The notes under the pieces: model-generated
The model's database searches: none
What the model saw: the letters and a program-made list of their open reading frames with translations, nothing else
Told to the model about the DNA's origin: nothing
Made by a program: the position numbers and the translations under genes
Part shown: positions 4,368 through 32,873 of the stretch, piece by piece
Layout of the letters: each line of letters starts with the position of its first letter
How positions within the stretch are numbered: position 1 is the first letter of the stretch
Source of the DNA: a virus
DNA: 32,873 bases
Strand: one strand, 5' to 3'
Virus record (IMG/VR): IMGVR_UViG_3300037321_000083
Span: 1 to 32,873 of that record

Positions 4368-4394
4368 AGCTCAATTCCGACCGGAAAGTTTTCC
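4321..4394. promoter_or_regulatory. Inverted GGAAAACTTTCCG repeat pair, candidate operators
   Basis: GGAAAACTTTCCG at 4321-4333 and its exact reverse complement at 4382-4394 form a perfect 13-bp inverted repeat separated by 48 bp. A third near-copy, GGAAAACTTTCGG, occurs at 4718-4730 inside the first codons of the adjacent HTH gene. Each copy is itself partly palindromic. The recurrence in one short region next to an HTH gene suggests binding sites for that regulator. A long-stem RNA structure is the alternative. Confidence 0.5.
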
Positions 4395-4486
4395 CAGACG
4401 ACGGGCGGCAGAAGCCGCCCACCACCTGCCAAACGCCGCGACGTGCGACGCCGTCCAAAATTCAGCAACGAACAACTTAAAACGCA

Positions 4487-4738
4487 TTATCGACCACCGA
4501 ACGCAGCGAGCGCCGCATCATGCGTTGAAGGGTCTGCCAGTGCGCGGGCGACAACCCAGCCTTGAGGCGCGTTAGACCCCTGCCACCAGTTTTCAGCAGT
4601 CGACGGGTCGACCCGGAAAACGAATGCGGCCTCCGTCGCGCTTTCAAAGTTAGCGTGGATAAAGTCGCGCCATGTTGCGGCGAATTGCTGGCGATAAGTT
4701 AAGACGTCAGAACGTGCGGAAAACTTTCGGCAAGACAT
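4487..4738 (-). CDS. Small HTH DNA-binding regulator
   Basis: ATG 4738 is chosen because it has an excellent ribosome site (ggaaaggaaccctaaca) just upstream; the longer frame to 4813 lacks one. The 83-residue product is a single compact domain with the pattern FESATEAAFVFRVDPSTAEN followed by WWQGSNAPQGWVVARAL, a helix-turn-helix with a tryptophan-rich recognition region. Such small proteins occur in alphaproteobacterial phage control regions. It follows the Cro-like gene in the leftward early transcript. GGAAAACTTTC-type repeats at 4321, 4382 and 4718 are possible targets. Confidence 0.65.
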   Translation of the reverse strand: MSCRKFSARSDVLTYRQQFAATWRDFIHANFESATEAAFVFRVDPSTAENWWQGSNAPQGWVVARALADPSTHDAALAAFGGR

Positions 4739-4809
4739 TGTTAGGGTTCCTTTCCTATGTCTGGTTTGTGGAACCGACATGGAAACAACAAAGGACGGGA
4801 CGGCGGCAG

Positions 4810-8389: not shown

Positions 8390-9447
8390 AATATCTTATG
8401 CCCGGCAAAGGCGCTGGCGGCGTAACCTATTGGTATTTTGCACGCGATCGGAAAAACCTGATCCGCCTGCCAGATGCCCCCCACGATCACCCCGACTTTC
8501 TGACCGCCTACGCCGCAGCGCTTGCCGCCTCCGGCCCGGTCAAAGGTGACACCCCAGCCAGATCCGGCACCGTCGCGGCGTTGATCATTGCCGCCGAGAC
8601 TAGCCCGGCCTTTCGCGCCGTATCGCCCGGATATCGCGCCGCCCTGACCTCACACTTCGCCGAGCTGACCACAATCGTCGGCGCGGCCCCCTTTCGCCAG
8701 ATCAGCGCCGCGCACATCCGCAAGAATGTCGGCGACGCCAGCAACCCCACCATGCGCCGCAAGGTCTGGCGATTTCTGTTTGCCTTTGGAATTGATGCCG
8801 GGCTGTTGACTGCCGACCCCTCTGCCAGCGTCGCACCGCCAAAGCGGGCGACCAAATCCGTCAGCCATCCCCCTTGGACCGCCGACGAAATCAAAGCCTA
8901 CCGTGCCCGCTTTCCGATCGGCACCTCAGCACGCGGCGCGATGGAATTGCTGCACTTCACAGCGGCCAGGATTTCGGACGCCGTGCGCATTGGCCCCGGC
9001 ATGGTCGGCGGCGACGGCGTGCTGGCGTTCGTGCAAAAGAAAACCGGCGATCAGGCGTTCGTGCCGTGGACCTGCCAGCTGCCAGCGCACGCCGCCAGCA
9101 GTGACGCAGACCGCGCCACCATGCACAAGGCGCTGGCGGCAATGTCGACCGGGCAGTCGACATATCTGGCGACCAGCACGGGCAAGCCCCGATCGTCCGT
9201 CGGGCTTGGCAACCTGATCAGGGAAAGCGCGGCAGCTGCCGGGTTTGATAAATCAGCGCACGGCTTGCGGGCGACCCGCGCGATCGCGCTGGCGGAAAAC
9301 GGCGCGTCGACGCACCAGATCGGCGCTTGGACCGGGCACAAAAGCCTGAAAGAAATTGAACACTACACCACCGCGACCAACCGACGCCGCGCCGTTATGG
9401 GCGCAGCTGGCGCGGTCATCGATCCGGCGGATCCGGCGGCAGGCTGA
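8353..9447 (+). CDS. int: Tyrosine-family site-specific integrase
   Basis: The 364-residue protein has the layout of a phage tyrosine recombinase: an N-terminal arm-binding part (about 1-45, with YWYFARDR), a core-binding SAM-like domain (about 65-155) and a catalytic domain. Visible catalytic residues are Arg206 (AARISDAV), Lys229/230 (QKKTG), His303 and Arg306 (HGLR), His329 (GHKS) and the nucleophile Tyr338 (EHYTT). It catalyses integration and excision between attP and the host att site. ATG 8398 is an alternative start, but residues 1-15 look like part of the usual N-terminus. It probably lies on the rightward operator-controlled transcript. Confidence 0.95.
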   Translation: MRPPIRHQPKRLKYLMPGKGAGGVTYWYFARDRKNLIRLPDAPHDHPDFLTAYAAALAASGPVKGDTPARSGTVAALIIAAETSPAFRAVSPGYRAALTSHFAELTTIVGAAPFRQISAAHIRKNVGDASNPTMRRKVWRFLFAFGIDAGLLTADPSASVAPPKRATKSVSHPPWTADEIKAYRARFPIGTSARGAMELLHFTAARISDAVRIGPGMVGGDGVLAFVQKKTGDQAFVPWTCQLPAHAASSDADRATMHKALAAMSTGQSTYLATSTGKPRSSVGLGNLIRESAAAAGFDKSAHGLRATRAIALAENGASTHQIGAWTGHKSLKEIEHYTTATNRRRAVMGAAGAVIDPADPAAG

Positions 9448-9664
9448 CGCCATCGCCTGCAGATCGATCACCCGGTCGCTGAAATACAATTCGATATTGC
9501 CACACCGCAGCGCCGCAGTCGCGACAGCGATACCGCGCCAGCACGTCATCCGTCGTGACGCACTTCGCCTTTATTGCGTCCGCCACCTGCAGCGGCACGG
9601 CATCGCGCCCACATTCAAATTCTAGCCACAAAACATGGTCTGGAATTTCGCACAATTCGGTCAC
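9416..9664 (-). CDS. Small cysteine-containing protein, zinc-ribbon-like
   Basis: GTG 9664 is preceded by a clean AGGAG ribosome site (9-base spacing). The 82-residue product has a CRDC pair (RYRCRDCGAAVWQYRIV) and two more cysteines near the N-terminus, suggesting a small zinc-binding fold. It is convergent with the integrase, and the 3' ends overlap by 32 bases, so the transcripts are mutually antisense there. It follows the Dam-type methyltransferase. Function unknown. Confidence 0.6.
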   Translation of the reverse strand: MTELCEIPDHVLWLEFECGRDAVPLQVADAIKAKCVTTDDVLARYRCRDCGAAVWQYRIVFQRPGDRSAGDGVSLPPDPPDR

Positions 9665-9676
9665 GCCGACAGGCTC

Positions 9677-10171
9677 CTATTGTGTCAGGTTTGTTTCGTA
9701 GGGACGGAACACCGCGCCCAAAGACTTTGCACGCATCAATGCGTCTGCACCGCGCTTGCCCGCTGCCAGCAGCGTTGTGCCCGTGCCGGGCTGTTCGCCG
9801 ATCGTGCCGTCTGGCTTTTCAAATTTGACCTTTGGCGACACGAACAACAGCGCCGACGCCTGCGGTGCAAATTCCTGCCACCACGGCGCAGACGTGCGAT
9901 CGGGCAGCAGCGCCACCCCATCGCCATGCATAAAGAATTTTCCCAGCCAGTCGCGCTTGGTCGATTGATGCCCGAAAGGCGGGTTCATCCACACAAAACC
10001 ATGCCAAGGCAAGATCAGGCTTAGGTCTGAATACCAAACGTCGGCAGGAACATGGCGCGGCCCGTCAACCGGCGCGGCGACGTCCAAGTCGAACCGTTCG
10101 CCAAGCGCATCGAAAATATAGGCTGGCGTATACCATTCGTCAGTTTCGCCTGCGGCCTCATATGCTGCCAC
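9677..10171 (-). CDS. dam: Phage Dam-type DNA N6-adenine methyltransferase
   Basis: The 164-residue protein matches the phage Dam family (PF05869-like): an N-terminal DEWYTPAYIFDALGERFDLD, where D-W-Y-T-P is the family hallmark, then DVAAP and the catalytic NPPF motif at residues 63-66 (WMNPPFG). It should transfer methyl from AdoMet to adenine N6, most probably in GATC. The window is strikingly rich in GATC, which fits such an enzyme. The target sequence cannot be proven from sequence alone. Length is typical for the family. It lies between the serine recombinase and the small gene at 9416. Confidence 0.9.
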   Translation of the reverse strand: MAAYEAAGETDEWYTPAYIFDALGERFDLDVAAPVDGPRHVPADVWYSDLSLILPWHGFVWMNPPFGHQSTKRDWLGKFFMHGDGVALLPDRTSAPWWQEFAPQASALLFVSPKVKFEKPDGTIGEQPGTGTTLLAAGKRGADALMRAKSLGAVFRPYETNLTQ

Positions 10172-10173
10172 GG

Positions 10174-10845
10174 TTAAACCCTTTCCAAAGTCTTTTGATC
10201 AAACCCCGGAAAGCCCCGCGCTTTCCAGTTTGCGTAAGATGTATGCGACGCCATCGGCGGCAGCTTCGACCCCGCGACCGCATTCATATCTTTGACAATA
10301 TCGCGGGCACTCATATCGCCGTCAGGGATAGCGCCAGACCGCCACAGGTCGACAAATCTGGCAAAGCGCAGTGGGCAATCAAGGATGCGGTGTTTCGGCC
10401 CCATACGGACACCACGCGCCCGCGCCGACGCCATACCCGCCTTAGTCCGCACAGCTGTCATGTCACGCTCAAACTGCGCCAGCCCCGCCATCAGCGTCAC
10501 CATGAATTTGCCCATGGGCGTTGTCAGGTCAAAGGCTTCGGTCAGGCTGCGAAATAGGATTTTATCTTTCGCCAATTCATCCACGAACATGACGACCTCG
10601 ATCATGTTTCGCCCGATGCGGTCCAGCCGCCAAACGACAAGCCCGTCACCCTCGCGCATGACCTTTCGGACACGAGCCAAAACCGGGCGCTTTGTCGTCT
10701 TACCCGACAGCTTTTCCGTAAAAATCCGATTGTCAGGAATGCCTGCGGCCCGCAGCGCGTCTAGCTGCAGGTCTAGGTTCTGTTCCTCGGTCGACACGCG
10801 GGCATAGCCATAAAGGTTGCCGCTAAATTCAGGTGTGTTCAGCAT
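10174..10845 (-). CDS. Serine-family recombinase (resolvase/invertase type)
   Basis: The 223-residue protein begins with the catalytic domain of small serine recombinases: YARVST with nucleophile Ser18 and Arg16, the helix FTEKLSGKTTKRPVLARV, the VWRLDRIGRN motif (Arg73, Asp75, Arg77) and FERDMTAVRTKAGM on the E helix. Residues 1-150 are classical. The C-terminal part (about 155-223) is longer than the usual 40-residue HTH and only loosely HTH-like (SARDIVKDMNAVAGSKLPP). A second recombinase in addition to the integrase suggests resolution or inversion, or a mobile cargo gene. ATG 10845 coincides with the expected transcription start, so the message may be leaderless. Confidence 0.9.
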   Translation of the reverse strand: MLNTPEFSGNLYGYARVSTEEQNLDLQLDALRAAGIPDNRIFTEKLSGKTTKRPVLARVRKVMREGDGLVVWRLDRIGRNMIEVVMFVDELAKDKILFRSLTEAFDLTTPMGKFMVTLMAGLAQFERDMTAVRTKAGMASARARGVRMGPKHRILDCPLRFARFVDLWRSGAIPDGDMSARDIVKDMNAVAGSKLPPMASHTSYANWKARGFPGFDQKTLERV

Positions 10846-10972: not shown

Positions 10973-11641
10973 ATGACAGAGCTTAAAATCTTGATCGGTT
11001 GCGAAACCAGCGGCACAGTCCGCGACGCTTTCAACGATGCCGGATATGACGCTTGGTCCTGCGATCTGCTGCCGTCTGACACCGGGTCAAATCGGCACAT
11101 CATAGGCGACGTGCGCGACGTGATGATGCTGGATGATTGGGACATTATGGCCGTGATGCACCCGCCGTGCACCCGCCTATGCAATTCCGGCGTGCGCTGG
11201 CTGACGACACCACCGCCGGGGCGAAGCCTGGATGATATGTGGCGCGAATTAGACGAAGGCGCAGCCCTATTTTCAGACGTTTGGAACGTCGGGCATATTC
11301 CGATGGTGGCAGTCGAAAACCCGGTTATGCACAAGCACGCCAAAGCCCGCATTGATAACTTTAAGCCCCTCTCTCAATCCATACAGCCTTGGCAGTTTGG
11401 CACGGATCCAGACGGCCCAGACAACGAGCGAAAACGCACATGTTTATGGCTGCGCGATCTGCCCAACTTGAAGGCGACCGGCACCCTAGACGGGTCGACC
11501 GCGCGGGACAGCGTGCACAAAGCCAGCCCCGGCGCGGATAGATGGAAAGCACGCAGCAAATTTTTCCCCGGCATTGCCGCTGCAATGGCTGATCAATGGG
11601 GCAAGCACGGCGTTAACTATTGCCGCCAGATCGCCGCCTAA
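10973..11641 (+). CDS. Cytosine-C5-methylase-like phage protein
   Basis: ATG 10973 has a ribosome site AAAGGA nearby; the longer frame crosses the promoter region. The 222-residue product has a Rossmann-like start (LKILIGCETSGTVRDAF) in the place of C5-methylase motif I, an acidic turn (SCDLLPSD), HPPCTRLC resembling motif IV (Pro-Cys) and VAVENPV resembling motif VI (Glu-Asn). Target-recognition and QxRxR motifs are not evident and the protein is short. It may be a degenerate or divergent DNA modification enzyme, probably protecting phage DNA. The nucleophilic Cys is inferred, and activity is uncertain. Confidence 0.65.
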   Translation: MTELKILIGCETSGTVRDAFNDAGYDAWSCDLLPSDTGSNRHIIGDVRDVMMLDDWDIMAVMHPPCTRLCNSGVRWLTTPPPGRSLDDMWRELDEGAALFSDVWNVGHIPMVAVENPVMHKHAKARIDNFKPLSQSIQPWQFGTDPDGPDNERKRTCLWLRDLPNLKATGTLDGSTARDSVHKASPGADRWKARSKFFPGIAAAMADQWGKHGVNYCRQIAA

Positions 11642-11814: not shown

Positions 11815-12234
11815 ATGACACCGACCGAAATCATCAGCGACGCCGACGTCGACCGGATCCACGCCAATGCAAACTTTGGCGACATGCCGAAACGCCAAGT
11901 GATAAATGAAGGCGTTTTCAAATATGCGATCGGGTCGCACTGCGGACATACGCAAACGCAGATCCTGCGCGAACATGGCCTAATCACACAGCCGCGCGGC
12001 CCGTCGGAAAACGCCAGCCTGACCGCCAAAGGCAAACGCTATGCGCGTGCGGTTTTTGCGCACCTGTCGTCAGCTGTCGCGGCCTACGTCACAAAACAGC
12101 AGATCGAACCAGTGGTGCCCGGCAGAAAATCCGAATCGCGCCCGCCGAAATATCGGCACGGCCTTGTTTCAGGGGTTGACGATCATTTAGGGCGATTGCC
12201 CGCTGCAGCTCAAAACCTACCCGGTCGGCGCTAA
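11815..12234 (+). CDS. Phage protein with winged-helix-like region, unknown function
   Basis: The 139-residue product starts at ATG 11815 behind a weak purine-rich site (ctggaaaacacaaa). Residues about 20-80 read FGDMPKRQVINEGVFKYAIG, then HTQTQILREHGLITQP and ASLTAKGKRYARAV, the pattern of a small winged helix (two helices, a recognition helix and a beta wing ending LTAKG). The C-terminal 45 residues are less ordered. It is the last rightward gene before the candidate attP, so in a prophage it would lie next to the chromosome end. The preceding 173-bp gap has only a weak 7-bp inverted repeat (11684-11690 and 11720-11726). Confidence 0.65.
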   Translation: MTPTEIISDADVDRIHANANFGDMPKRQVINEGVFKYAIGSHCGHTQTQILREHGLITQPRGPSENASLTAKGKRYARAVFAHLSSAVAAYVTKQQIEPVVPGRKSESRPPKYRHGLVSGVDDHLGRLPAAAQNLPGRR

Positions 12235-12235
12235 T

Positions 12236-12415
12236 TGCAAACACTTTCCAGAAAACTGCAAACACCTGATTAAAAGTCTTTATAATCAGGTGTTTGCTAA
12301 TTCTTTGGTGGACTGGGGAGGACAACCACAACCGTTGATTTGAAACGATAAATCAGCGGAAACTGCAAACATTCGACCCCATAAAAAACAATGCGTTACA
12401 AACCGACTGCAAACA
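12236..12415. other. attP: Candidate phage attachment site (attP) with arm-type repeats
   Basis: Five copies of (T/A)GCAAACA lie here: 12236-12243, 12257-12264, inverted at 12290-12298, 12364-12371 and 12408-12415. They flank a sequence (12306-12323) whose reverse complement GTCCTCCCCAGTCCACCA has the form of a tRNA 3' end: 5-base T-stem strand, 7-base acceptor strand, discriminator A, CCA. That is the expected build of an attP: a core identical to the tRNA end, with integrase arm sites on both sides. A perfect 15-bp inverted repeat (12258-12272 and 12283-12297) is also present and may terminate the convergent transcripts. Confidence 0.6.
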
Positions 12416-14211: not shown

Positions 14212-15318
14212 TTACGCCGTGCGCGTTTTTGCGAATGCGGCGGGGGCTATCCGTGGCGTTTTCTCGGTCGCCATCCAAAACAGCATGATAAACAGCGGCA
14301 CCTTGTGACGCAGCCCGATACCCGCTGTAAAGCTGGACATGCCGTAAACGAAAAAGCAGATCACGACAGCCGCAACGGTCATCGCCAGATATTGCGCCCG
14401 TGACTGAAAGATCAGAGCCAGACAGTAGGCGCTCATCAGCGTGCTTAAACTGGCAACCAGCCATTCAGTCCCGCCAGATGGACCCGCTAAGATCGGCGCA
14501 GCAAAGAACGCGATTGCAGCGACAGCGCCTCGCGCCTCGTATGGAAAGCCCATATCAAATAGTTGCGGCGCGTAGCTTGTTTCTGCCTTTCTTTCGGATG
14601 CTGACAGTTTGTTTTCCAGCGCTGCAGTCCGCGTCTCTGACGACTCAATTGCAGACGCCTTTGACGACAGGGCAACAAAGTCAGCCCAGTAAACCTCCAA
14701 CAAAATAAACGAAGCCAGCGCAGCCAGAAGCGCGATGCGCCAGTTCTTGAGTAGCGCGCCAGCGGCAAAAACATTGCCGGGATGCGCGATAACAACAAGA
14801 AGTAGCGCAGCACCGCCTAGGACCGTATTGCCTAGCCTCTTTGCTGCCGATGCCCCATGCGTGGTGAATAGGTATGCAACTATCACAGCAAGGACGCTGT
14901 AGGTAAACTCGCCCATCCCATTTCCGATCTGGTAGGCGCTGTAGCAAAGAAGTAGCAACAGGACTGGCTTCTTTAGCAGCCCTTTTGATCGGGACTTTAG
15001 CGCAACCAACAATCGGAAAAGAGCGAACCCATACACCATCGCCCACGCAGGCCCTGTAAATGTGGCAATCGCCCCAAAAATGTATGTGTGAACCCTGTCA
15101 CCGCAAAGCCTGAATGCAAATGAACACCCGTTCACAGTTGCAGCGTAACTTTGGGCATCACCGACCGGCCCCACGAATGATCCAGAAGCGGACAGCACTT
15201 GGCAAAGCATCGCTGCAGCAACCATCAGGACTAGTGATACAGAAACCGACCATCTCTGCGCCCTGATGTGAAGCACAAGACCGATCAGAAGGCCCGCTGC
15301 CATTAGAATGAATGTCAT
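14212..15318 (-). CDS. Polytopic membrane protein, Wzy/EpsG-like polysaccharide polymerase candidate
   Basis: The 368-residue protein has about nine or ten hydrophobic segments along its length and a 40-residue hydrophilic helical loop (about 215-255, SSKASAIESSETRTAALENK, then LSASERKAETSY). Topology and style (early GDAQSYAA motif, late GLRHKVPLFIMLFWM) resemble EpsG/Wzy-type polymerases of surface polysaccharide. No catalytic motif is certain. It directly follows the tailspike gene, which suggests the phage alters host surface sugar. It and the tailspike are poorer in GATC than the rest of the late operon, a sign of separate origin. Confidence 0.6.
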   Translation of the reverse strand: MTFILMAAGLLIGLVLHIRAQRWSVSVSLVLMVAAAMLCQVLSASGSFVGPVGDAQSYAATVNGCSFAFRLCGDRVHTYIFGAIATFTGPAWAMVYGFALFRLLVALKSRSKGLLKKPVLLLLLCYSAYQIGNGMGEFTYSVLAVIVAYLFTTHGASAAKRLGNTVLGGAALLLVVIAHPGNVFAAGALLKNWRIALLAALASFILLEVYWADFVALSSKASAIESSETRTAALENKLSASERKAETSYAPQLFDMGFPYEARGAVAAIAFFAAPILAGPSGGTEWLVASLSTLMSAYCLALIFQSRAQYLAMTVAAVVICFFVYGMSSFTAGIGLRHKVPLFIMLFWMATEKTPRIAPAAFAKTRTA

Positions 15319-25739: not shown

Positions 25740-26269
25740 GGCTGCCGCCAGATTAGCGGATCAATCAGACAGTCGACCGCAAACGGCAACACCGACACCG
25801 ACCCGGCGATCGTCGCTTCGCGATTTGTAAACCAGTTCGCGACCATCATCATCACAGCGACCCGCACCGACGGCAGCGACGCCGCTGGCAGACCGCAGTC
25901 AAATTCGACCACGACCCGCGACACCGCAGGACCGGACGCCGCGACATAGGATCCGCGCTGATCGGCGACCAGATCCGCAGACGTCGCAGCGACGTCGCCG
26001 CCGTCTGCGTCAAAGCCCGCGACCCGCACCGCAGACACGTCAGGCATCGCCAGCCGCAGATCTCCCCAGCTGTCGAATTCCTGCGACCACGTCTGCGGCA
26101 TGATTGCCCGGCCCATGATCCCGCGCCAGCCGTCCAGCATCGCCAGCGCCGCCGCCCGGTAAACGTCGATCATCGCGTCCTGATCGGGTCCGTCGACGCG
26201 CAGATGCGCCCGCAGATCCTCCGCCGTCACAAGCGGGTCAGACGGCGGCGTGACCAGTTTCAGCATCAT
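25736..26269 (-). CDS. Head-tail connector (gp6/phiE125 gp8-like)
   Basis: The 177-residue protein has the family pattern VTAEDLRAHLRVDGPDQDAM, then IDVYRAAALAMLDGW, GRAIMPQTWSQEF and, at the C-terminus, LPSVRVAVMMMVANWFTNRE. The start is mainly helical, as in HK97 gp6. It assembles a ring under the portal. It overlaps both neighbours by four bases, in standard order between the small head gene and the head-tail adaptor. Confidence 0.85.
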   Translation of the reverse strand: MMLKLVTPPSDPLVTAEDLRAHLRVDGPDQDAMIDVYRAAALAMLDGWRGIMGRAIMPQTWSQEFDSWGDLRLAMPDVSAVRVAGFDADGGDVAATSADLVADQRGSYVAASGPAVSRVVVEFDCGLPAASLPSVRVAVMMMVANWFTNREATIAGSVSVLPFAVDCLIDPLIWRQP

Positions 26270-26610
26270 TTCGTTTCCGGCGCCTTCGCGCTGGCCTTAT
26301 TGGTCGGCGCAGCCTTCACCTTGGCGGCAGCTGCAGCGTCAGCTGCGTCTGCGTCAGCCTTCACCTTGGCGGCAGCTGCAGCGTCAGCTGCGCCTGCGTC
26401 AGCCTTCACCTTGGCGGCAGCTGCAGCGTCAGCTGCGTCTGCGTCAGCCTGCGCCTTGGCGGCAGCTGCAGCGGTTTCAGGATCCGGCAGCGCCCCCAGC
26501 TCGACCGCAGCTGCGACCAGCTCCGGCGGGCAGATATCGCCCGGCGCAAAATGCTTTGGATAGACGGACCCGGCGGGCACGCCCTCAAAAGGTGCGGTGA
26601 AAGTCTGCAT
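26266..26610 (-). CDS. Small head-region protein with Ala/Lys tandem repeats
   Basis: The 114-residue protein has a unique N-terminal 45 residues (TFTAPFEGVPAGSVYPKHFA, then PGDICPPELVAAAVELGAL), a style common to small proteins next to major capsid genes. The rest is three full and one partial 15-residue repeat of the type AAAAKVKADADAADA and a Lys-rich tail. The repeats are helical and alternately charged. It may be a decoration, scaffold-like or connector-associated protein; none is proven. The DNA repeat unit is 45 bp. Confidence 0.7.
   Translation of the reverse strand: MQTFTAPFEGVPAGSVYPKHFAPGDICPPELVAAAVELGALPDPETAAAAAKAQADADAADAAAAAKVKADAGAADAAAAAKVKADADAADAAAAAKVKAAPTNKASAKAPETK
26311..26475. 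repeat. 45-bp tandem repeat within the small head gene
   Basis: Three complete 45-bp units start at 26311, 26356 and 26401 and a degenerate fourth runs 26446-26475. Units 1 and 3 look identical; unit 2 differs by one base (GCC for GTC-type codon, Gly for Asp). The unit is in frame, so copy-number change would not break the gene. Confidence 0.9.
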
Positions 26611-27965: not shown

Positions 27966-28682
27966 TTATTGATTTTCAGATTTGCAGCGGGCTTTCAGAA
28001 GCTCCACCAGCTCTAGATCGATGCCGCCGCCAGCGTCATGCATGGCCTTAACTGCACCCAAACCCCCGCCCATCAGGGCGCGGGCGACCGAACGGGTAAA
28101 CCCAGCGTCATGCGTGAGTTTCCGTTCAAATTCGACGCGGGTCAGTTCCGCCGCCTTGATCCCGTCAATCCGTGCCGTCACCAGCATCGGAAACGTGACC
28201 AGCGAAACCTCCCAAATTTCTAATTCCGTCAGCGACCGGACACCAGCAGCGTCGCGGGTCGCCTTGATCGTGCGATAACCGATCGACAGCCCGTCGATCG
28301 CGCCCGCCTCGACCAGCGCGATCGCTTCGCGGCCCTTTTCAACGTCAGACAGGATCCGGCCCTTCACCAGCAGGCCCCGGTCATCCTCGACCACTTCATC
28401 CCAGACGCCGATCGGCTTCGACGGGTCATGCTGCCACAGCATTTTGACCCGCGATTTTCCGGCCTTTTTGGCCCGCAGCGACTTGGCAAAAGCCCCTTTG
28501 ACGATCTGGTCGCCGCCCTGATCGGTCTGGCCAAACAGCGACGCATAGCCTTCGATCGCGCCGCCGCTGATCGACTTGATTTCGATCGGCACCGTCTTGC
28601 GTTCCAGCTGATCGATCGCGTCGTCGCCTTTGCATTCCAGCGCCAGCGCCGCCAGCGCCGCCTGCATCATTCGATCATTCAT
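27966..28682 (-). CDS. HK97-family prohead protease
   Basis: The 238-residue protein has the U35/S78 family pattern: GAIEGYASLFGQTDQGGDQI, the catalytic His85 in MLWQHDPSKPIGVW, and Ser133 in IDGLSIGYRTI, followed by ELEIWEVSLVTFPM. It trims the capsid delta domain during maturation. The C-terminal 60 residues are an extension with no known motif. The start overlaps the portal gene's end by eight bases. Confidence 0.95.
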   Translation of the reverse strand: MNDRMMQAALAALALECKGDDAIDQLERKTVPIEIKSISGGAIEGYASLFGQTDQGGDQIVKGAFAKSLRAKKAGKSRVKMLWQHDPSKPIGVWDEVVEDDRGLLVKGRILSDVEKGREAIALVEAGAIDGLSIGYRTIKATRDAAGVRSLTELEIWEVSLVTFPMLVTARIDGIKAAELTRVEFERKLTHDAGFTRSVARALMGGGLGAVKAMHDAGGGIDLELVELLKARCKSENQ

Positions 28683-29886
28683 CTTTTACCGGCTCCGCTG
28701 TTGGGTTCATTGCGCCGCGCGGCAGGACATTCGCCCACGCGGCAGGATCCGGCGGCAGGCCCGCATCGATCCGCACTTCATTCGGCGTCATCCAGCCCGG
28801 CTGACCGCCAGCGCCAAGCGCCTTTGTGTAGTAGTCCGCCTGATCCTTGAAATCGCCACGCGCTAACCCGCGTTCCTCAAGGTCGACCCGATACCCGTCG
28901 ACGCCTGACAAAATGTCGCGTGCTGCGGCTTCTTCAAAGCGCACAAACCACGGCATCAAAGTATGCGTCAGATGCACCCTGAACATTTGTTCCGCGCTGC
29001 CAAACGTCGCGGCCTTATCTTGCTGCATCAGCATGATCGGCTGCACCCGGAAGGCGCGGGCGATTTCCTCAATCTGAAACCGCCGGGTTTCCATGTGCTG
29101 CGCGTCGACGCTGGTCATGGTCATCGACTGAAAAGAGGCGTCGCCGTCCAGAATTGCGATGCCGCCTTCGCCGTTGATGCCGAATTTTTGCTGCCAAGTT
29201 TCCTGCAGCGCTTTTTTTGTTTCAGCGCCTAGCTTGTTTTTGAATGACAGCACCCCGGACGGCTTGCCGCCGTTGCCTGCCAGCTTGGCCTGTTGACGCT
29301 CCAGCGCCCGGCTTAATCCGATCGCCTCGCGGGCTTGGCGGATCGCGGGCAGACCGTCGAAACCATCCAGCGACGGCCCACGCAGGTAAAACACCTGATC
29401 ACGGGTAAAATAGCCGTGCGTTTTGTCGACATAATCGACCCGAAACCGCAGCGACCAGTCGGGCATCTGCTCCACCGACCAAGATCCTGCAGGCACCGGC
29501 AGCAATTCGCGCACTTCGTCGTTTACGACGTTCTTAATCGCGATCGCCCCGCGCCCGATCACAGCGTTAAAAACCATGCCTTCGCGAAATTCAAAGCTGG
29601 TTTGCCAGCCGTTCGGCTTCACCGCCAGCAGCTTGTGCGCCCAATGCTCCCGCGCGACAGCGCTAGTGCGTTCGTCGCCGTTGTAAGTGTCCTGCAGGAT
29701 CCGCACCGGCACCTGCGCGACGCCTTCGGCGATCACCCGCGCTGCGCAGAACACGGCAGGCACGTCGACGGCATTGTGCGACGTGACAGACAGACCCGAC
29801 GCCGATGCCCAGCCGATCCAGCCCGCAAAGCCCGCCAGCTGGTCGACCGTATAGGTCGCGCTCTTGCGCAGAAAACCAAACATCAA
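28675..29886 (-). CDS. Portal protein, HK97 family
   Basis: The 403-residue protein has family landmarks: VPAVFCAARVIAEGVAQVPV near residue 45, an RDQVFYLRG strand, then DGFDGLPAIRQAREAIGLSR, and RRFQIEEIARAFRVQPIMLM, with the C-terminal helix region HTLMPWFVRFEEAAARDIL. It forms the dodecameric ring through which DNA enters and leaves. It overlaps terminase large at its start (ATGA). Confidence 0.95.
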   Translation of the reverse strand: MMFGFLRKSATYTVDQLAGFAGWIGWASASGLSVTSHNAVDVPAVFCAARVIAEGVAQVPVRILQDTYNGDERTSAVAREHWAHKLLAVKPNGWQTSFEFREGMVFNAVIGRGAIAIKNVVNDEVRELLPVPAGSWSVEQMPDWSLRFRVDYVDKTHGYFTRDQVFYLRGPSLDGFDGLPAIRQAREAIGLSRALERQQAKLAGNGGKPSGVLSFKNKLGAETKKALQETWQQKFGINGEGGIAILDGDASFQSMTMTSVDAQHMETRRFQIEEIARAFRVQPIMLMQQDKAATFGSAEQMFRVHLTHTLMPWFVRFEEAAARDILSGVDGYRVDLEERGLARGDFKDQADYYTKALGAGGQPGWMTPNEVRIDAGLPPDPAAWANVLPRGAMNPTAEPVKDE

Positions 29887-31595
29887 AGCACCATCAATTC
29901 GGCGTCGTCCAGATAGCTGCCGCCGGTCGCCGACGGGTTGCGCGACATCAGCATGAAACCATTTAGCCCCGCGATCAGCGGGTCGATCTTAGCCTTGCCC
30001 GCCGTTTCTTTCGTAATGATCACAGCACTGCCCCTTTGTTCGGTCCGGGCATTGCCCAAAACCCAATCCATCATTGGCTGCCCCGCATGGCGCAGCGTTC
30101 CGTTTTTCAGCTTGCGCTCCATGCCCCAGATCGCAGGCGACAGGCGCGACCCCTGCCCGATCGCGGCCATCTGCTCATCCGAAATGCCTCTGAATGACAA
30201 TTCATCGACCAGCGCCGCGACCCCGTAAGGGTCCAGCCCGATCGCGCCTTCCTCCGGCAGCAGCCCGGCGATCAGCAAGCGCTCGACGTAGTCCGCCACG
30301 CCGATGATATCTTGCGTCAATTCGTCGTCTTTCAGGATCGTCAGGCATCCTGATCGCTCAAAATCCAGCAGGCGCGGCGCGATTTCCTTGCGCAGCTTCA
30401 AAACCTCTGGATGCGCCCACGCATGAAACCATGCCAGCCAGTCGCGGGTTTCCTTGTCGCGCCCGATGATCGACAGGCCCAGAAGGTCATCCAGACCGCC
30501 ACCATCGATGCCGACGACAGCCACGTCGCAGCGATCGATCAGGCTTTCCAGATCCAGCCCCGGCAGCGCGGCCTTGCCCCAGAATTGCGCTCCCATCCAT
30601 GACGTCGCTTTCAGCCCGACGCCGATTTCGACGTTAAAATGCTGCGACGCCAGCAGTGCCAACGCGGCAGGCCCGTCGCGTTCTGCCGCCGTCAGCTGGT
30701 CCAGCAGAAACTGCGGATCGACAGACAGTCCGAAATTCGGATTGACCAGCCCCCACGTTTTGGGATTTTTCCAGCCTTCTTTTTTCAGCAGATCCGGCGG
30801 CAGCTCATACAAAACCGCCAGCATCGGCAGACTGATTTCGCCGTCGCGCACGGCCCGCGCCTTGTCCAGCTCTTGACCGAACACGCCCGACGGCGGCGTC
30901 TTAGACTGCGTCGTGATCTGCAGCAAAAACCCGTCGGTGCGCGATGCCAATGCGCCGCGCAGCTCGACAAAAACTTCGGAAGCGCCCGACTTTTTCGCGA
31001 ATTCGTGCGTTTCATCGATCAGCGTATAGGTCGCCTTGCCGCCCGTGATCGTGTCCGTGTCCGATGCTTTGATCGCGATTTCCGCAAGGCTGATCCGGTG
31101 CGTTATCGTTTTGGCGTGATCCTTCAAATGGAATAGATCGGTCAGCACCGGATCCAGCCTGATCATGCCTTTGATCGTTTTGAACGCGATGCCCGCGATT
31201 TTCATCGTCGGCGCGATCAGCAGCAATTCAGCCTCTGGCCGCTCATTCATAATCGCAGCGGTCAGGATGATGCCCGCCGCCATGCTCGACTTGCCGTTTT
31301 TTTTCGGCACCAACAGGAAAAACTCGCGCAACATGCGCCGCCGGGTTTCCGGGTCATAGCTGCCGAACACGACGCGGACGAAATCAAACACCCAATCGGC
31401 GCAAACTTCGGCGTGCGTCGGCGTCCCGATCAGATCCGGCACCCGCAAGCGCTTAAAAATCCTCAGCGCCTTTTCCGCGACAGCATCAAACAGCGGCAGA
31501 TCTGGCAGCAGTGACGCCCGCGCCTTGATCCGTTCAGCCCAATCCGGCACCGCCGTGCCCCAATTTGAAAGGTCCGACGGATCCAGCAGCTGCAT
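29883..31595 (-). CDS. terL: Terminase large subunit (Terminase_1 type)
   Basis: The 570-residue protein has an N-terminal ATPase with a deviant Walker A at residues 97-104 (PKKNGKSS), an adenine-side motif near LLLIAPTMKIAG and Walker B TLIDETHEF at 191-199 with catalytic Glu195. The C-terminal nuclease has acidic residues at 364 (VGIDGGG) and near 455 (GLDPYGVAALVDEL). It cuts concatemeric DNA and pumps it into the prohead. Length is typical. It lies 11 bases after the small subunit gene. Confidence 0.95.
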   Translation of the reverse strand: MQLLDPSDLSNWGTAVPDWAERIKARASLLPDLPLFDAVAEKALRIFKRLRVPDLIGTPTHAEVCADWVFDFVRVVFGSYDPETRRRMLREFFLLVPKKNGKSSMAAGIILTAAIMNERPEAELLLIAPTMKIAGIAFKTIKGMIRLDPVLTDLFHLKDHAKTITHRISLAEIAIKASDTDTITGGKATYTLIDETHEFAKKSGASEVFVELRGALASRTDGFLLQITTQSKTPPSGVFGQELDKARAVRDGEISLPMLAVLYELPPDLLKKEGWKNPKTWGLVNPNFGLSVDPQFLLDQLTAAERDGPAALALLASQHFNVEIGVGLKATSWMGAQFWGKAALPGLDLESLIDRCDVAVVGIDGGGLDDLLGLSIIGRDKETRDWLAWFHAWAHPEVLKLRKEIAPRLLDFERSGCLTILKDDELTQDIIGVADYVERLLIAGLLPEEGAIGLDPYGVAALVDELSFRGISDEQMAAIGQGSRLSPAIWGMERKLKNGTLRHAGQPMMDWVLGNARTEQRGSAVIITKETAGKAKIDPLIAGLNGFMLMSRNPSATGGSYLDDAELMVL

Positions 31596-32826: not shown

Positions 32827-32873
32827 CTAGGTTTCGTCAAACTCTTTTTTACCGTCTGCGCGTCCGCTGCCGC
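32827..32873 (-). CDS. Partial C-terminal ORF entering from the window end
   Basis: The minus-strand frame from the window edge reads GSGRADGKKEFDET and stops at TAG 32829-32827. The upstream part lies outside. KKEFDE is shared with the partial ORF at 1-66. If the window ends join, the two frames differ by one base at the junction; a single extra base would give one continuous 37- to 40-residue C-terminal part. This is weak but supports the ends being adjacent. Confidence 0.3.
   Translation of the reverse strand, partial: GSGRADGKKEFDET
32832..32854. repeat. Imperfect terminal direct repeat (other copy at 6-29)
   Basis: TTTCGTCAAACTC plus a T-run plus ACCG occurs at both ends of the window, with six T at 32845-32850 and seven T at 19-25. 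Beyond it the sequences diverge except for scattered matches (CTGCGC, CTGCCGC). It is not an exact assembly overlap. Confidence 0.7.

Follow-up and report, generated by a model that had tools for sequence, protein, structure and literature searches.

The question raised by positions 12236-12415 of the window (the whole stretch of DNA analysed, 32,873 nt, from IMG/VR virus record IMGVR_UViG_3300037321_000083) is whether this repeat-rich segment is the place at which a phage recombines with its host chromosome and, if so, what lies between such a site and the integrase gene. The segment is probably the attP of a temperate tailed phage, the site at which its tyrosine integrase recombines the phage genome with a host tRNA or tRNA-like gene at the 3' end of that gene. 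This explanation directly rests on a break in homology at the core, on the colinear course of a relative across the window ends, on the tRNA sites used within the integrase clade, and on the distance between core and integrase. An attP fixes the integration site, the prophage ends, and the cargo region of this uncultured lineage, whose integrase relatives belong to phages of Rhodobacter and Paracoccus.

The plus strand at 12306-12323 reads TGGTGGACTGGGGAGGAC, and its reverse complement, GTCCTCCCCAGTCCACCA, fits a tRNA 3' end composed of a T-stem strand (CCTCC), an acceptor strand (CCAGTCC), the discriminator A, and CCA. This 18-mer and the five copies of WGCAAACA within the segment had been pointed out in a first-pass annotation of the window, and both are confirmed in the sequence (Table 1). 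These copies are the only ones in the whole 32.9-kb window, for which 2.3 are expected by chance; three lie to the left and two to the right of the core and form putative repeated arm-type sites on both sides. Lambda-type integrases are positioned on attP by arm sites together with inverted core sites, and strands are exchanged within a 7-base overlap. The segment resembles a lambda-type attP in that an arm motif recurs on both sides and inverted core sites appear to enclose a 7-base overlap; unlike that system, the integrase gene is not adjacent to it, and Xis and IHF sites are not established here. No complete tRNA gene is present in the window, as is expected for an attP.

Table 1. Features of the candidate attP and of the adjoining integrase and cargo region (window coordinates)
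Feature	Position	Strand	Basis or remark
Tyrosine integrase, 364 aa	8353..9447	+	Pfam PF00589, E=2.7e-11; phrog_1 integrase
82-aa ORF, no assigned function	9416..9664	-	convergent with integrase
Cargo: Dam-type adenine methyltransferase	9677..10171	-	PF05869, phrog_111
Cargo: serine recombinase, resolvase/invertase group	10174..10845	-	PF00239, E=2.9e-41; phrog_125
Cargo: phage DNA methyltransferase-like protein	10973..11641	+	phrog_757, E=9.7e-56
Cargo: ORF, no assigned function	11815..12234	+	phrog_18088; ends just before first arm site
Putative integrase arm site TGCAAACA, P side	12236..12243	+	motif search; function putative
Putative integrase arm site TGCAAACA, P side	12257..12264	+	outer end of palindrome
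Near-perfect palindrome, 40 nt	12258..12297	.	ends 8 nt before core
Putative inverted arm site AGCAAACA, P side	12291..12298	-	outer end of palindrome
Putative attP core	12306..12328	+	sequence; G002 homology break at 12305; tRNA-3'-end similarity rank
Inverted core-type sites TGGTGGAC / GACAACCA	within 12306..12328
Probable overlap TGGGGAG, 7 bases	12314-12320		from symmetry
Putative arm site TGCAAACA, P' side	12364..12371	+	CGCAAACA at the same place in G002
Putative arm site TGCAAACA, P' side	12408..12415	+	identical in G002, nearly invariant stretch
Candidate target sequence at host tRNA 3' ends, CTCCCCAGTCCACCA

The WGCAAACA cluster exceeds chance; taken alone, it is suggestive rather than overwhelming, because in DNA of such composition a count of this kind is reached by some 7-mer at the 3-4% level (five copies in 3.6% of simulations of the local composition). 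The moderate rarity of the cluster leaves room for a different reading of the segment, in which the repeats and the palindrome, which follows the end of an ORF, form a terminator or operator or a replication iteron cluster and the likeness to a tRNA arises by chance. Such a function is scarcely credible in view of the break in homology located exactly at the core, the core orientation common to the integrase relatives, and the rank of the core in tRNA likeness, all of which are described below.

The break was found by comparison with close relatives. A search of IMG/VR with the integrase yielded two contigs whose integrases are 97-98% identical to that of the window, among them G002 (IMG/VR contig 3300007522_000045, 30,327 bp; integrase 97% identical). 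The left end of G002 contains the right half of the segment, and its match to the window begins exactly at base 12305; from there the contig follows 12305-14000 and 17784-32873, passes straight into base 3, and continues to 9651, with gaps and mostly at 88-97% identity. Compared in blocks of 20 bases, the two sequences agree at 4-8 positions left of 12305, which is the level of chance, and at 16-20 positions to the right; within the core, identity is 34/35. A further contig, L013 (3300032435_000150), begins at this junction as well, and both relatives depart from the window exactly at 12305, where presumed host DNA begins. TGCAAACA is absent from the 105-109 nt left of the core in G002 and L013, and both P' sites are retained in G002, one with a 1-nt change; a flank that lacks the arm motif beside conserved P' sites is as expected of a bacterial-side attL. 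The left flank of G002 would then be host DNA in an attL-like arrangement. It is above all this break, in a relative whose integrase is 97% identical, that supports the attP and the core position proposed in the first-pass annotation, and the five copies around the core, with the P' pair kept in G002, bear out its putative arm sites.

The same flank (AAAATTCACAAGAAGTGGGTCTTGCAGTACGG) is strongly hairpinned (z = -6.1 and -4.9), and it may derive from the phage rather than the host, either as a divergent arm or as an arm belonging to a related tandem prophage. On that account the break at 12305 reflects an exchange of modules at attP; the attP would still lie here and no attL would have been seen, which is compatible with the attP part of the preferred explanation. 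Palindromes stand near the core in this flank too, one of them stopping 8 nt short of it like the palindrome of the window, and the left breaks of two assemblies fall at nearly the same base; the right ends of G002 and contig L003 are also identical, and breaks of this kind could be caused by a variable region of the phage. The lack of TGCAAACA throughout the 105-nt flank, despite a 97% identical integrase and conserved P' sites, argues against a divergent P arm, which we regard as a real but distinctly less probable source of the flank than host DNA. A protein search with the flank gave no identification, and Rfam searches of the flank and the attP returned only sub-threshold chance matches. 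Neither attR nor an empty attB was seen, and extension of G002 reached no attR in any contig; apart from G002 and L013, the 16-mer core occurred elsewhere in viral contigs only in unrelated contexts.

Because G002 breaks at 12305 and is colinear across the window ends, the window can be read as a circularly permuted unit that carries an intact attP and has the core as its point of departure, and the integrated-type junction appears to map to the core. Prophage ends at the window ends, which the first-pass annotation had named as an outcome that would speak against its proposal, are contradicted by G002, which runs straight across the end of the window into its start. An imperfect repeat of about 43 nt is present at the window ends, 1-47 and 32830-32873 (GTTTCGTCAAACTCTTTTTT..CCGCTGCCGC), and the two copies correspond to one continuous place in G002 and L003. 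Although classed as linear, the record probably represents a complete circular genome that was opened at a variable poly-T run.

The resemblance of the core to a tRNA is less direct. The 18-mer had been suggested as a query against tRNA genes; in 84,980 genomes it has two exact matches, neither of them a tRNA. Such a scan is too strict, because att identity within the clade extends over only about 15 nt, as in RcapNL and Pthi1. No tRNA with the exact core as its 3' end was found in these genomes, in viral contigs, or among plasmids and phages. When every 18-mer of the window starting with TGG (1069) was compared with 35 tRNA 3' ends, tRNAs fetched by the core pattern being left out, the core ranked first of 1069, with 15 of 18 positions matching. 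Searches of plasmids and phages with the predicted T arm found related, non-identical tRNA ends, those of Phaeobacter tRNA-Arg(ACG) and Sphingobium tRNA-Ile, both alphaproteobacterial. As far as sequence comparison goes, a tRNA origin of the core is supported, though not proven, by this rank and by clade precedent; of the original tRNA claim, the likeness thus stands, and a tRNA carrying this very 3' end was not found.

An acceptor end of the form CCAGTCC-A-CCA does exist: viral tRNAs and a permuted tmRNA have it. The tRNAs in viral contigs that carry the core acceptor are unrelated, and they and the permuted tmRNA were the only such cases. A permuted tmRNA gene, which comes in two pieces, is able to carry CCAGTCC-A-CCA as its acceptor end and might accordingly be the target: on viral contig L067, a permuted tmRNA ends in CCAGTCCACCA. 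Its 5' piece (GGGCTGG) starts about 68 nt past the CCA, and nothing equivalent occurs in the 105-109-nt flank of G002; a tmRNA target is very unlikely because this flank lacks the second piece that would be expected downstream. The L067 gene itself (4389-4759 on a 56-kb viral contig) encodes the tag ANDDLFAQAA.

A somewhat better, still improbable, alternative to a tRNA retains the attP and takes as target a protein-coding gene at its 3' end, where the phage core would restore roughly the final ten codons. The flank and core of G002 can be read as (M)SKIHKKWVLQYGHEIPAKGNFVTVKANYVGVRHINSWWTGEDHHNR-stop, an open frame of 46-47 codons that spans the core and closes with a TGA at 12337-12339, and the near-identity of the window and G002 reaches just beyond this stop. 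However, an open frame of such length would not be improbable by chance, the flank is dominated by strong palindromes, and searches of Pfam, NCBIfam, PHROGs, PDB, plasmids, and phages gave no convincing match to the ORF. Moreover, the relatives in the clade with visible sites use tRNAs, and a protein-coding gene is the weaker rival to a tRNA target.

This clade precedent comes from 31 integrase relatives, in which a core was looked for wherever the sequence continues past the integrase stop. In ten of them (L005, which is RcapNL; L006, which is Pthi1; L023, L025, L032, L035, L038, L040, L046, and L047), a core that starts with TGG and resembles a tRNA 3' end lies 19-32 nt past the stop, in the same orientation; in L033 and L034 no clear core was found near the integrase. 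The cores of five of the ten are at tRNA-Ser(GGA) or tRNA-Arg(TCT): that of L023 is the 3' end of tRNA-Arg(TCT), and those of L035, L038, and L040 are the 3' end of tRNA-Ser(GGA). In all tRNA cases observed, the CCA end faces the integrase, as it does in the window. In three relatives a palindrome ends 7 nt short of the core, compared with 8 nt in the window; the WGCAAACA motif is not evident in more distant relatives.

The closest known systems show both the likeness and its limits. The integrase of Paracoccus phage vB_PthS_Pthi1 (MK291444) is homologous to that of the window (40-42% identical), and its attachment site is a 15-nt sequence, CCTCACCGTCCGCCA, in tRNA-Ser(GGA) (PMC6536676). The two phages share a TGG-first core in the same orientation to the integrase, and the putative site of the window would, like that of Pthi1, cover about 15 nt at the 3' end of a tRNA gene, but in Pthi1 the tRNA is known, the core sequence is another one, and the core lies 26 nt past the integrase stop, without cargo. 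Rhodobacter phage RcapNL and the prophage L023 at tRNA-Arg(TCT) are closer (integrases 46-47% identical) and have a similar layout, in which a repressor, a DUF2303 gene, and the integrase are followed by convergent structural genes; a palindrome precedes their core, TGGCGATCCCGGGAG, by 7 nt. Unlike the window, their core is located 30 nt past the integrase stop, and both the arm sequences and the tRNA differ. The RcapNL attP and the tRNA-Arg(TCT) end of L023 have only 15 nt in common. In the more distant phi2LM21, whose integrase is 31% identical, the site is in tRNA-Phe(GAA), with 17 nt of identity (PMC5537653).

That the phage encodes its own tyrosine integrase follows from the Pfam and PHROGs matches in Table 1, and the alignment shows the R...HxxR...H...Y residues. 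In the RcapNL/Pthi1 layout the core follows the integrase stop by no more than about 30 nt; here it starts 2858 nt past it, in agreement with the 2.8 kb first reported. The gap holds two methyltransferase-like genes (the protein at 10973..11641 has no Pfam match), a serine recombinase, and an orphan ORF. The earlier description of this cargo as lying between attP and integrase is supported; in the prophage the cargo would, as proposed there, occupy one end, the one on the tRNA side. The 82-aa ORF, which has no Pfam match, follows the integrase in both the window phage and G002; similarity to G002 ends near its start codon, with divergence from 9651. In the slot between integrase and attP, G002 carries different genes, including one for a 386-aa protein. 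This protein (minus strand; G002 28647-30327, L011 10647-12327), which replaces the methyltransferase and serine recombinase cargo of the window, has no match in Pfam or PADLOC.

The segment otherwise reads as an ordinary phage attP; its single unusual feature, a modest curiosity, is that a cargo slot separates it from the integrase gene. Tentatively, and with the balance of probability against it, the stretch can be viewed as a standing cargo slot of the lineage, with the 82-aa gene (about 9651) and the att core (12305) as its limits, in which gene sets replace each other at the tRNA-side end of the prophage and across which the integrase acts on an attP kilobases away. Turnover of the slot could be driven by integrase-mediated exchange at the core.

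Under the preferred attP explanation, the integrase would bind the WGCAAACA arms (three in P, two in P') and the core-type sites TGGTGGAC and GACAACCA, and strands would be exchanged within the approximately 7 bases of the overlap. Recombination would take place with the 3' end of a presumed host tRNA or tRNA-like gene, the CCA end of which faces the P arm, and this 3' end would stay intact after integration. In the prophage, the endolysin or late side would adjoin host DNA downstream of the tRNA, and the cargo, followed by the P arm, would adjoin the tRNA gene itself. The predicted order in a lysogen is host - core - late genes - early genes - integrase - cargo - P arm - core/tRNA.

An integrase clade in which attP normally lies about 30 bases away thus also includes members with kilobases of cargo in between, which is a warning for prophage boundaries drawn at the integrase gene; among the IMG/VR relatives that derive from isolates, most have their end precisely at the stop codon of this gene. 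Elsewhere in the window, a small protein encoded at 26266-26610 contains an in-frame repeat of about 15 residues (AAAKVKADADAADAA), and the DNA repeats of this gene also align out of register with the relative. Between the tail genes and the endolysin, 14212-15318 encodes a 368-aa protein with no match in Pfam or PHROGs; judged by eye, it looks polytopic and membrane-bound, which is unusual for a phage late region.
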